Assembly (NCBI RefSeq): GCF_001650905.1
Contig: NZ_LXYG01000006.1
Coordinates: 1-64,000, forward strand
Reading direction: 5' to 3'
Origin: Balneola sp. EhC07
GTDB taxonomy: Bacteria; Bacteroidota; Rhodothermia; Balneolales; Balneolaceae
DNA length: 64,000 nt
The position numbers and the translations under genes were made by a program. Of this stretch, positions 1,794 through 26,615 are shown piece by piece. Each line of letters starts with the position of its first letter. The stretch's first letter is position 1. The notes under the pieces are model-generated. The model was not told the origin of the DNA. It did no database searches and saw only the letters and a list, made by a program, of their open reading frames with translations.

Positions 1794-4745
1794 ATGAACA
1801 TTAAAAAGCTACTACCGGTATTATTTCTATTAGTTAGTGTTGGGGTGCAGGCGCAGTCAGGAAAAATTACAGGTAAAATTCTTGATGCTGAAACCGGAGA
1901 GCCACTGATAGGTGCAACAGTTGGTATAAAAGGGTCTACAAAAGGTGCAGTTGCCAATATCGATGGTAATTTTCTGATGTTAAATGTAGCCCCGGGCACT
2001 TATACGTTGGAAGCAAGATACATCGGTTATGCTACTCTGGCTGTACAAGAAGTAATTGTAAGAACTGATCTAACTACGGAACAGGATTTCAGGTTAGAAC
2101 TGGAAGCATTTGAAGGTGAAGAAATTGTGGTAGTGGCAACTCGTCAACCTGTTTTAAAAGATGTGACCAGTTCTGAATCCAGAGTAAGCAGCGAAGAAAT
2201 TAAAAAATTACCTGTTCAGGAAGTTTCAGATGTGATTGGTTTACAGGCGGGAGTTAATGTTGATAATGGAGGTGGAATCCATATCAGAGGTGGACGAACT
2301 TCAGAGGTTTCCTATGTTGTGGATGGAATCAGGGTTACAGATGATTATGACAGATCAAACGGTGTAAGAATTGAAAATGAATCTGTGCAGGAATTACAAG
2401 TTATATCAGGTTCTTTTAATGCAGAACATGGTCAGGCACTTTCAGGAATTGTAAATGTAGTTACCAAATCGGGAGGCAGCCAGTTCGATGCTTCTGTAAA
2501 TGCTTGGACAGGTAGCTATATGGCAACCTCGCAAAGTGGTATATACGATGGTATTGGAACGGGTTTTAATAATTTAAATCCAAACAGAATGTATAACCTG
2601 TCTGCTTCTGTATCAGGTCCTATTATAAAAGACAGACTTACATTTTTTGTAACAGCCCGAAGATTTGAGAACGAGGGGCATTTAACCGGTAGAAATGCTT
2701 TTTCATCTCACGGACAATTCAGAGATACGTTGGCACTGGGAACAGATTTTGATTCCTACAGAACTATATACAATGAGAGAGTCGACTTTGATAAGCCTTG
2801 GTATTCTATAGATACAGTAAATTTTCAAGGTACCGAACAATTGATTTTAACAGATGACGGAACCAGAGATAGTTCTTTAGTAAACATGAATAACTTTCAA
2901 AGTTCCAGTTTTCAAGGAAATCTGGAGTATCGTTTTTCAAAGTTTTTGAAATTTAACTTAATAGGCTCATATGGTCTTGAAGAAGGGCAGGGATATGATC
3001 ACCAAAACAAATTAGTTCCCCTTGGCAGAGGTACGAATTATAGAAATAATTATGCTTTAAATTTCAAAACTACCATTACTCCTTCGGCAAAAACTTTCCT
3101 GACCGTTAATCTTGCTAACAGATACAACGAGCAAAAGAGCTACTTGTATGAAGATCCATGGGATCCGCGATACTTTAATTTTGATCGAGTTTCAGATTTT
3201 TACTCACCGGGCGAACGCAGTATACCGGGTGCGGCACAGTTTAGTTTTTACGGTACTGATAACAACAGATTTTTCAGATCGACAGATACATTTATCGGAA
3301 AAGCAGAAATTTCAAGCCAGGTAAGCGAGAACCATTATGTTAAAGCAGGTATTAACCTTCAGTTTGATGAAGTCAGTTTCGAAAATATCTCACTAGTTCC
3401 TTTTACTGATCCATCCATAAGTTTACCGCCCGGCACACCTGACGATATTAAACCATTTGTAAAACTAGGCTATCCGGAGTTGAATACACCCGGTTATCAA
3501 AAGTATTCGGAGTCGCCGAGAAATTTTAGTGCTTATGTTCAGGATAAGATCGAGTTTGATAATCTGATCATAAATGTTGGATTAAGATTCGATTACTTTG
3601 ATCCAAATTCCAGAGTGGTTTCTGACCTTGAAGATCCTGATATCACTTCACCTACAAAACAAGAAAATCAGTACAGAGATCAAAACGGGAATGGGCAGCA
3701 AGACCCGGGCGAACCTGATGTTACTTTAGAAGAACGCCAGGAATATTGGTACAAGGATACCAGTGTTAAAACTCAGTTAAGTCCGAGAATCGGTGTAGCT
3801 TACCCGATCAATGATCGTGGAGTTTTGTATTTCTCTTATGGTTACTTCTTTCAGGTGCCTTCTTATAGCTTCATGTATACAAACAGCAGAGTATTTGTGG
3901 GTGAAAGAAGTGGGAATTTAGGTTTATTCGGAAATCCTGATCTGAGACCAGAACGATCTACTCAGTATGAGTTAGGTTTAAAGCAGGAAATTTTTGACGG
4001 TACAGCAATTGAGCTTACCGGTTATTATAAAGACACCAGAGATTATGTTTCAAGCCGACCTCAGGTTACAGGAGCAGCTTCTACAAATTACGGTATTTAT
4101 TTTAACAGAGACTTTTCAAAATCAATTGGCTTTACGTTCGCATTCAATCAATTTGTAAGTCAACGTTTTAACTTTGGTCTGGATTACACATTCAGTTCTG
4201 TTGAAGGAAGTAATTCGGATCCAAACTCAGAGTATTTTGATATTGTTAATGCAGGAACTCAAATTGATTCAACAAATCAAACTTCATCAACAACAAAGTT
4301 GATCCAGCCTCTCAATTGGGATAGAGCTCATATAGTAAATGGTTCAATGTTTTATTCCGGAAATAATTGGGGAGCTAATCTGGTAACCAAATTCAGTACA
4401 GGTACACCATATACACCACAAACAGACATTCCGGGTGTAGAAATTGGTGTTGGAGCAAGTACAAGAGACCTAAGAAACACTTCACGTCTACCGGCACGAC
4501 TAACGGTGGATCTTAATACATATAAGAACTTCAATTTACCAAACGGTTCCAGTATGGAGCTTTTTCTGAATATTTATAACCTGCTCGACAGCAAAGTAAT
4601 TAATAGTGTGTATGGAGATTCAGGAGAGGCAACGGCTCCATTACCAATAAACACGGTTAGTTCTGCCGATCCCGGATTTTATTCAAATCCGACTTTCTAT
4701 GCAGAACCAAGAAGAATTCAACTAGGACTTTCAATCTCTTTTTAA
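1794..4745 (+). CDS. TonB-dependent receptor with N-terminal carboxypeptidase-regulatory-like domain
   Basis: An outer-membrane active transporter, here probably for alpha-glucan oligosaccharides. I chose the ATG at 1794 over a TTG at 1782 because it gives a clean signal peptide ending QAQ. A CarboxypepD_reg-like domain follows (about residues 23-105, with ETGEPLIGATVGIKGS). A plug (about 115-225) contains GGGIHIRGGRTSEVSYVVDG. A beta-barrel fills the rest and ends in aromatic Phe (SISF). The 983-residue length is usual for SusC/Oar-type receptors. It starts 8 bp after the parvulin gene and ends 3 bp before the next secreted protein, so the three are surely one transcript. No SusD gene follows, unlike classic Sus loci. 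Substrate is inferred from the GH13 genes downstream. Confidence 0.9.
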   Translation: MNIKKLLPVLFLLVSVGVQAQSGKITGKILDAETGEPLIGATVGIKGSTKGAVANIDGNFLMLNVAPGTYTLEARYIGYATLAVQEVIVRTDLTTEQDFRLELEAFEGEEIVVVATRQPVLKDVTSSESRVSSEEIKKLPVQEVSDVIGLQAGVNVDNGGGIHIRGGRTSEVSYVVDGIRVTDDYDRSNGVRIENESVQELQVISGSFNAEHGQALSGIVNVVTKSGGSQFDASVNAWTGSYMATSQSGIYDGIGTGFNNLNPNRMYNLSASVSGPIIKDRLTFFVTARRFENEGHLTGRNAFSSHGQFRDTLALGTDFDSYRTIYNERVDFDKPWYSIDTVNFQGTEQLILTDDGTRDSSLVNMNNFQSSSFQGNLEYRFSKFLKFNLIGSYGLEEGQGYDHQNKLVPLGRGTNYRNNYALNFKTTITPSAKTFLTVNLANRYNEQKSYLYEDPWDPRYFNFDRVSDFYSPGERSIPGAAQFSFYGTDNNRFFRSTDTFIGKAEISSQVSENHYVKAGINLQFDEVSFENISLVPFTDPSISLPPGTPDDIKPFVKLGYPELNTPGYQKYSESPRNFSAYVQDKIEFDNLIINVGLRFDYFDPNSRVVSDLEDPDITSPTKQENQYRDQNGNGQQDPGEPDVTLEERQEYWYKDTSVKTQLSPRIGVAYPINDRGVLYFSYGYFFQVPSYSFMYTNSRVFVGERSGNLGLFGNPDLRPERSTQYELGLKQEIFDGTAIELTGYYKDTRDYVSSRPQVTGAASTNYGIYFNRDFSKSIGFTFAFNQFVSQRFNFGLDYTFSSVEGSNSDPNSEYFDIVNAGTQIDSTNQTSSTTKLIQPLNWDRAHIVNGSMFYSGNNWGANLVTKFSTGTPYTPQTDIPGVEIGVGASTRDLRNTSRLPARLTVDLNTYKNFNLPNGSSMELFLNIYNLLDSKVINSVYGDSGEATAPLPINTVSSADPGFYSNPTFYAEPRRIQLGLSISF

Positions 4746-25821: not shown

Positions 25822-26174
25822 CGACCTTTAGAATTATTTTCACCAACTCTGTCATCCCGATTTCAGCGAAGTGATGGATAGCTACTTCGCCGTCTGTCGG
25901 GCTTTGCACGGCTGACGGATTTTGGTTGTTTAGGAAGGAATAAGACCCGCCCGGCTAAGAAGCAGTTTCTTGGGGCTATGTACTTTTGTGCCGACAAAAG
26001 TACCAAAAGCTCCCGACAAGAATTATTGGCGCGAACTTCATTACATCGACTAATCATTACAAAAGGTCTTCGGACGTGTGATACATATTCAAGAATCAGC
26101 CTGAGTGTAATGATTGCTCCTGGGGAGCCGTCGATTTCATTGCGTTCTTGTCTCGCCAATAATTCTAAAGGTCG
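25822..26174. repeat. Non-coding 353-bp element with 17-bp terminal inverted repeats
   Basis: CGACCTTTAGAATTATT at 25822-25838 is repeated exactly as its reverse complement at 26158-26174. The inside is more GC-rich than the flanks and contains smaller palindromic pieces such as TTTTGTGCCGACAAAAG. Both strands carry short open frames, but no frame reads like a protein. It resembles the miniature inverted-repeat elements or repeat remnants often seen between genes in Bacteroidota. No clear target-site duplication is visible. Confidence 0.55.
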
Positions 26175-26252
26175 GTTTTGATTGTATTATTTTGATGCTG
26201 ATTATTTCATGTCAGAACCTTTTTGATAAACACAAAATCACATTAATAGGTC

Positions 26253-26273
26253 ATCCTGAACTTGTTTCAGGAT
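26253..26273. repeat. REP-like palindrome ATCCTGAA-cttgt-TTCAGGAT
   Basis: An 8-bp perfect stem with a 5-nt loop, within a stretch reading TCATCCTGAACTTGTTTCAG. Palindromes of this wording are familiar interspersed elements in many bacterial genomes (general recollection, not checked). It is in the non-coding gap before folC. Confidence 0.5.
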
Positions 26274-26351
26274 CTTCGCGAGGTTCATTTCTAGTTGAAT
26301 ATCCAGTCCATCAACCAGCGTTTACAGTTTTAATATTGCTGAAATAAGTAT

Positions 26352-26521
26352 GCCCTTAGTATTTAACATAGGTTCACTGACTCTACGCTGAATAATTCCA
26401 AAGATCTTCGTTCTTTTAGATATAATTTCTAAGCTCCTCATTTTAAGGAATTATTCCTGCTCCGTAGACGCATACGCATCATGCTCTCTTCTCCGTCTTA
26501 AATACTAAGGGCGGTTTTTTT
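26352..26521 (+). other. Long folded element ending in a T-run, possible structured RNA
   Basis: GCCCTTAGTATTTAA (26352-26366) pairs exactly with TTAAATACTAAGGGC (26498-26512), followed by GG and seven T. Inside, TCTACG (26382-26387) pairs with CGTAGA (26463-26468), and AATAATTCC (26391-26399) with GGAATTATT (26447-26455). The ~160-nt segment can thus form one long interrupted hairpin with a terminator-like end, about 95 bp before folC. It could be a small RNA, a leader element or a palindromic mobile element. No coding frame fits. Confidence 0.4.
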
Positions 26522-26615
26522 GAACTATCAATACTAAAATTGTCAACGAAATAATTAACTTATCAAATACTCATCTTACCTTAGAATCTTATGAAATGAT
26601 CCTTAATTTCCTTAA

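Follow-up and report, generated by a model that had tools for sequence, protein, structure and literature searches.

Upstream of folC in Balneola sp. EhC07, a stretch of around 160 nt can be drawn as a long-range hairpin followed by a run of T, which raises the question of whether it is an RNA gene, a control element of the neighbouring gene or a sequence of another kind. The window analysed here comprises the first 64,000 nucleotides of contig NZ_LXYG01000006.1, in which an aminotransferase class IV gene, the hairpin, a gene of the Mur ligase family (consistent with folC) and then rho follow one another; the aminotransferase gene and folC, which flank the hairpin, both lie on the + strand, and the hairpin copy ends approximately 95 bp upstream of folC. 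In a preliminary description, three nested exact pairings and a T-run were taken to describe a folded RNA of defined length. On the + strand, to which all features below refer, the outer 15 bp pairing is present exactly as described, with the arm at 26352-26366 having an exact inverted copy at 26498-26512, and the inner pairing between 26390-26399 and 26447-26456 is also found, although it extends over 10 bp rather than the nine originally reported. The sequence further holds a 6 bp pairing, TCTACG at 26382-26387 with CGTAGA at 26463-26468, and a T-run at 26515-26521, 3' of the outer stem. The predicted fold of 26340-26530 (-45.6 kcal/mol) is more stable than those of shuffled sequences (-30.15 +/- 3.71 kcal/mol; z -4.16), none of the 200 shuffles being as good. 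Across the window no Rfam family reached its gathering score, the one other match being at chance level (E 6.2), ruling out a known Rfam RNA class for the hairpin, and at E 1 Pfam yields no match to a 98 aa ORF that lies to the left in the region, on the minus strand.

The hairpin is not confined to this locus. A 191 bp query had 26 matches in the same genome, including the window copy itself and a few short pieces, and a search of relatives found matches in nine of 58 genomes, counting the host's own. A covariance model (R1) built from 22 copies, the window copy among them, delimits a module with a full-length match at 26348-26513 (E 4.8e-37) and has 46 matches in the genome at E <= 0.001, which split by score into 23 of at least 115 bits and 23 of 43-71 bits. 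The defined length originally ascribed to the hairpin therefore holds for this repeat module, but nothing indicates it as the length of a transcript. In a survey of the phylum, in which at most nine candidates per genome were scored under strict filters, the module was present in 16 of 296 sampled genomes (again counting the host's own) at E <= 1e-4, with all of the matches listed covering the whole model; the genomes bearing it belong to six of 139 genera, all within the Balneolaceae, the family to which the window belongs. This is a hairpin repeat family of Balneolaceae lacking an Rfam match, which is defined here, and no description of it was found in the titles and abstract openings of the open-licence literature. 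The copies sampled are intergenic, no ORF of at least 100 aa runs across any of the 22 copies in the host genome and, on the basis of crude ORF calls, the genes around these copies are arranged opposite/opposite in 12 cases, same/same in four and mixed in five, with the upstream gene missing in one. When 24 loci from this genome were compared, most were found to have sequence in common far beyond the hairpin. At one locus (L033:2731-3226 and 3467-3963), two module units of around 497 bp, 90.5% identical, lie close together. No recurrent cargo gene was seen between neighbouring distant modules in the ORF lists of five loci (L200-L204), read by eye.

Pairing within the module has been maintained through sequence divergence. 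The list of 45 copies used for this comparison left out those that were matched over around 100 bases or fewer, cut by the end of a locus or identical, and the alignment (A1) contains 44 copies, L031 being excluded; from these, RNAalifold predicted 42 pairs, 28 of them changed on both sides. Over 48 matches, 45 of them distinct, the covariation score was 0.528, compared with 0.147 +/- 0.008 after shuffling (0/500 shuffles as high) and 0.046-0.110 in controls with slid partners, while 36 of 40 pairs had a change on both sides in the 48-match alignment, which was itself fitted to the model. The compensatory changes among homologous copies that had been proposed as a check on the hairpin are thus found. 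The inner helix is Watson-Crick paired in 99.1% of cases across the 44 copies and 95.7% across seven distant ones, and a local 4 bp hairpin (helix 7, at 26457-26467, with arms 26457-26460 and 26464-26467), which is conserved in the family, in 93.8% and 89.3%. The 6 bp TCTACG/CGTAGA pairing competes with this local hairpin and, at 71.6% and 40.5% Watson-Crick, was rejected as a conserved helix, though it exists in the window copy. The columns of the outer stem are 73.4% Watson-Crick in the 44 copies, its exact 15 bp match being partly private to the window copy, and the T-run is not kept elsewhere: in the 10 nt following the stem, the longest run of T is seven in four of the 44 copies, six in two, five in 17 and four or fewer in 21. 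In modules with C-type heads, loop and tail are complementary (CTTGAT/ATCAAG, CTTGAC/GTCAAG), and the complementary run averaged 4.64 across 28 distinct heads, compared with 3.27 once tails were shuffled (at most 3.93); a head pseudoknot common to all modules is ruled out, as A-type heads hold direct repeats.

The window copy sits among related sequences. A second module of the family, diverged and of a type absent from the set used to build the model, lies at 26010-26174 (E 9.5e-12) with a head hairpin GTACTTTTGT...ACAAAAGTAC on its 5' side at 25980-26003, recognised from the sequence and by comparison of heads, and between the two modules a REP-like palindrome, GTCATCCTGAACTTGTTTCAGGATCTT, occupies 26250-26276 and has the same sequence as palindromes found beside GIY-YIG genes. 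Further upstream, 25822-25976 holds a third type of hairpin interior with the outer sequence CGACCTTTAGAATTATT in common, seen also at L071, L079 and L081; to 25822-25976 the model has only a weak, partial match (E 0.98). Within this stretch, the palindrome at 25890-25918 (CCGTCTGTCGGGCTTTGCACGGCTGACGG) resembles, as judged by eye and not by tool alignment, those on both sides of a Y1 transposase gene at L067.

In the genus, many module copies are found inside longer composite elements. These measure around 370-850 bp where a module and both ends can be recognised, and comprise one or two diverged modules between 26 bp terminal inverted repeats, TGTAGATGTTAGRTAATTCRYTKACA, with ends of the form TGTAGATGTTAG...CTAACATCTACA; the right end of the element is CCGTCTTAAATACTAAGGGC...TGTCAACGAATTACCTAACATCTACA, and the left end is its inverted counterpart. 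Of the 24 hairpin loci fetched, 11 had two recognisable ends. Allowing three mismatches, the pattern GTAGATGTTAGRTAATTCRYTKACA occurs 23 times in forward and 25 times in reverse orientation in the host genome, against none for a reversed-pattern control, and the 26 nt terminal pattern has matches in seven of eight other genomes, where controls again gave none. Among distinct paired elements of every kind, 21 in number, exact 5 bp target duplications with identical flanks occur in four, compared with 2.2% of between-element pairs, and the flanks are alike at four or more positions in nine, compared with 12% between elements; 12 have three or fewer matching bases, and seven of the 21 boundaries are doubtful because an end carries six or seven mismatches or only zero or one flank base matches.

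Sites lacking the element were sought by comparing the joined flanks of eight insertions with six congeners, and twelve locus comparisons were read. A contiguous counterpart was found for three of the eight (L025, L021 and L072), the L070 site was occupied in G007, and L016, L028, L032 and L071 were undecided. At the L025 site, where AACGG is duplicated, the sequence is contiguous in G001, G002 and G004; its flanks lie on different contigs in G007, the pattern expected of an insertion that coincides with an assembly break, and in G003 and G006 there are contiguous matches of lower identity with the junction unread. At L021, G002 and G007 have a contiguous site and G001 a split one, and the site of L072 is contiguous in G007, with the match in G001 and G002 extending 13 bases past the junction. 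Removal of the element from L070 leaves an unbroken REP-like palindrome which, together with the empty sites, indicates that the family has been mobile in the genus and that some of its insertions went into REP-like palindromes. In the stretches read from other genera, no TG...CA ends were found with a module, so these ends fail to explain the spread of modules there.

What lies between the ends varies. The elements at L070, L072 and L073 (522-530 bp) contain an intact reading frame for a single-domain GIY-YIG protein, that of L073 matching PF01541 above the cut-off (E 7.3e-13), and at L075 the frame is split; two elements of 148 bp (L076 and L080) retain the ends and a palindrome, and those of G003 and G012 have other interiors between the same ends. 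Judged by the spacing of ends and the stretches read in the host genome and eight others, whose draft assemblies may lose multi-copy elements, no transposase gene lies between these ends, and no autonomous partner having the same ends was seen in these genomes. In other genera, GIY-YIG genes are frequently bracketed by inverted palindromes. Small Balneolaceae GIY-YIG genes (L090-L119, for instance L097, L096 and L111) are often flanked by inverted REP-like palindromes of the same type as that between the two window modules. Such flanks were found at eight of 28 GIY-YIG genes, against two among 56 further ORFs from those loci (Fisher p 0.002), a comparison that uses a single cut-off set by the author and includes related loci among the 28. 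The palindrome-flanked genes might be REP-associated nucleases.

The best explanation for the hairpin upstream of folC, held with a probability of about 0.65, is that it represents a single module, now worn, of a MITE-like repeat that is non-autonomous and dispersed in the Balneola genome. The elements would owe their mobility to an enzyme that works in trans on the TG...CA ends; these ends and the 5 bp duplication make a transposase of the DDE type the most likely candidate. The hairpin module may be an older, separate repeat family that was captured between such ends in the genus, and its complementarity could be kept at the DNA level by way of single-stranded hairpins, cruciforms or the copying of one arm from the other through template switching. 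The window copy is damaged at both ends: its left terminal repeat is unrecognisable and the right one degenerate, with no hit at three mismatches, leaving a right-end remnant at 26522-26562 (end approximate) that was delimited by locus comparison. This copy lacks the common head hairpin, and 15 bp of its left arm match the right arm; at L019, complementary arms extend beyond those of common copies. These two copies suggest that one hairpin arm can serve as the source for rewriting the other, and the exact 15 bp match in the window copy has apparently arisen through the left arm becoming a copy of the right. Invariant unpaired bases in the module are left without explanation by the MITE-like reading.

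These bases, along with the strong covariation and the stability of the fold, would suit a structured RNA transcribed from one strand, whether regulatory or belonging to a mobile element, an alternative that is nevertheless judged unlikely on the strand counts. In RNA, the transcribed strand tolerates G-U pairs but not A-C pairs. RNase P RNA of the same family, aligned from 22 of the 38 genomes with a match, served as the control, and a redundancy cut at 85% identity reduced the module alignment (A3) from 48 to 36 rows and the other (A4) from 22 to 17. In the 17 non-redundant RNase P RNA rows, GU:AC counts at covarying pairs were 48:11 on the RNA's own strand and 6:22 on the other (114:14 and 53:25 over all pairs); in the 36 module rows they were 15:13 on the + strand and 17:15 on the - strand, with identical counts over all pairs, and another count for the module gave 17:19. 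The 44 near copies lean to the minus strand, with 20:6 against 8:22 on the + strand at covarying pairs and 103:10 against 66:25 over all pairs, and use of the model's structure gave 77:44 on the + strand, 49 of these 77 coming from three pairs that are often not Watson-Crick; those counts that lean to a strand thus do not consistently lean to +. As the non-redundant set has no strand preference, unlike RNase P RNA, the constraint looks to be one on DNA, and the pairing of the module appears from these alignments to be kept at that level. The tens of dispersed, diverged copies and the lack of an Rfam match also count against an RNA. As a separate observation, RNase P RNA matches are 473-500 nt long in eight of the 38 genomes (G000, G002, G004, G007, G017, G028, G032 and G220, the host's own being at G000:C17:335491-335990) and 336-425 nt in the other 30; in four long ones that were aligned (L243, L245, L247 and L248), the extra sequence is one block of around 110-125 nt resembling an inserted repeat.

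The folC genes most similar to that of the window come from Balneola assemblies, and of four close relatives with related sequence before the gene, one has nearly the same copy (L009) and another a copy with the commoner interior (L012); in L010 and L011 the body is absent, and the right end and T-run are kept with other repeats inside. The missing body in two of four makes a conserved role for folC unlikely and, with the 26 matches to the query elsewhere in the genome and at the locus itself, rules out a unique sRNA or conserved folC leader. The original proposal of a folded RNA gene before folC is unsupported, given the 46 model matches, the relatives that lack the body, changes with no + strand preference and the absence of an Rfam family, and the hairpin is probably neither a small RNA gene nor a folC control element. 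It is quite unlikely that, between the aminotransferase gene and folC, this copy serves to terminate transcription or acts as an mRNA-end element: a terminator-like match at 26493-26514 is followed by T, both neighbours are on the + strand and the retained right end and T-run of L010 and L011 would fit, but the region has four such matches against 3.0 +/- 1.7 in shuffles, the T-run is unconserved in other copies and the outer stem encloses around 130 nt, unlike that of an intrinsic terminator.

Other routes of mobilization have also to be weighed. The module might itself be mobile, moved as single-stranded hairpin DNA by a HUH (Y1) transposase independently of the TG...CA ends. At L200 (1979-2429 and 3918-4370), two module units of around 450 bp, 91% identical, lie 1.9 kb apart with different flanks, which suggests that the module spreads in a genus where no TG...CA ends are seen; modules without these ends in other genera, six Y1_Tnp matches in the host genome and the DNA-level pairing point the same way. 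Yet none of the six Y1 loci has a module match within around 1.5 kb on each side, and such a mechanism is considered improbable. There is still less reason to expect that the family is mobilised by the single-domain GIY-YIG nuclease whose gene some of these terminal repeats enclose. It is the sole protein-coding content seen between these ends, the L072 element carrying it has an empty site in G007, and its genes have the excess of inverted palindrome flanks noted above; however, the gene is present in only part of the elements, the 28 loci tested for palindromes are not independent and, to our knowledge, GIY-YIG nucleases do not make 5 bp target duplications. As the gene accompanies REP palindromes and not these ends in other genera, it may be cargo. 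Similarly remote is the prospect that the elements are a new kind of mobile element of the Balneolaceae, in which the structured DNA module of around 166 nt, marked by invariant bases of its own and covariation that is symmetric between strands, would be the hairpin recognised by an enzyme acting in trans, perhaps the single-domain GIY-YIG nuclease encoded between the same TG...CA, 5 bp-duplicating ends.

On the favoured reading, as a MITE-like repeat, strong compensatory covariation of the sort usually taken to prove a structured RNA occurs here in a dispersed DNA palindrome, and counting GU against AC on each strand, with RNase P RNA as the control, provides a simple discriminator between constraint on RNA and on DNA. 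The analysis also defines a set of elements with terminal repeats, some of which carry a GIY-YIG gene, whose mobilising enzyme is accessible to experiment.

Among known repeats, ERIC and BOX elements are intergenic, long imperfect palindromes or modular repeats able to fold, and in this they resemble the Balneola repeats; they belong to other lineages and have other sequences. The likeness to bacterial MITEs extends to terminal inverted repeats, target duplication, the absence of a transposase gene, intergenic location, tens of copies and empty sites. Unlike MITEs, the Balneola elements have large, conserved hairpin modules inside and a variable interior between the same ends, and no partner insertion sequence was found for them. 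REP/RAYT systems (GTAG REPs; PMC3733652) likewise consist of dispersed palindromes, of 20-40 bp compared with modules of 166 nt here. No Y1 gene in the host genome is flanked by a module, in contrast to REP/RAYT systems, and the Balneola elements have REP-like palindromes in and beside them, which are used as insertion targets.
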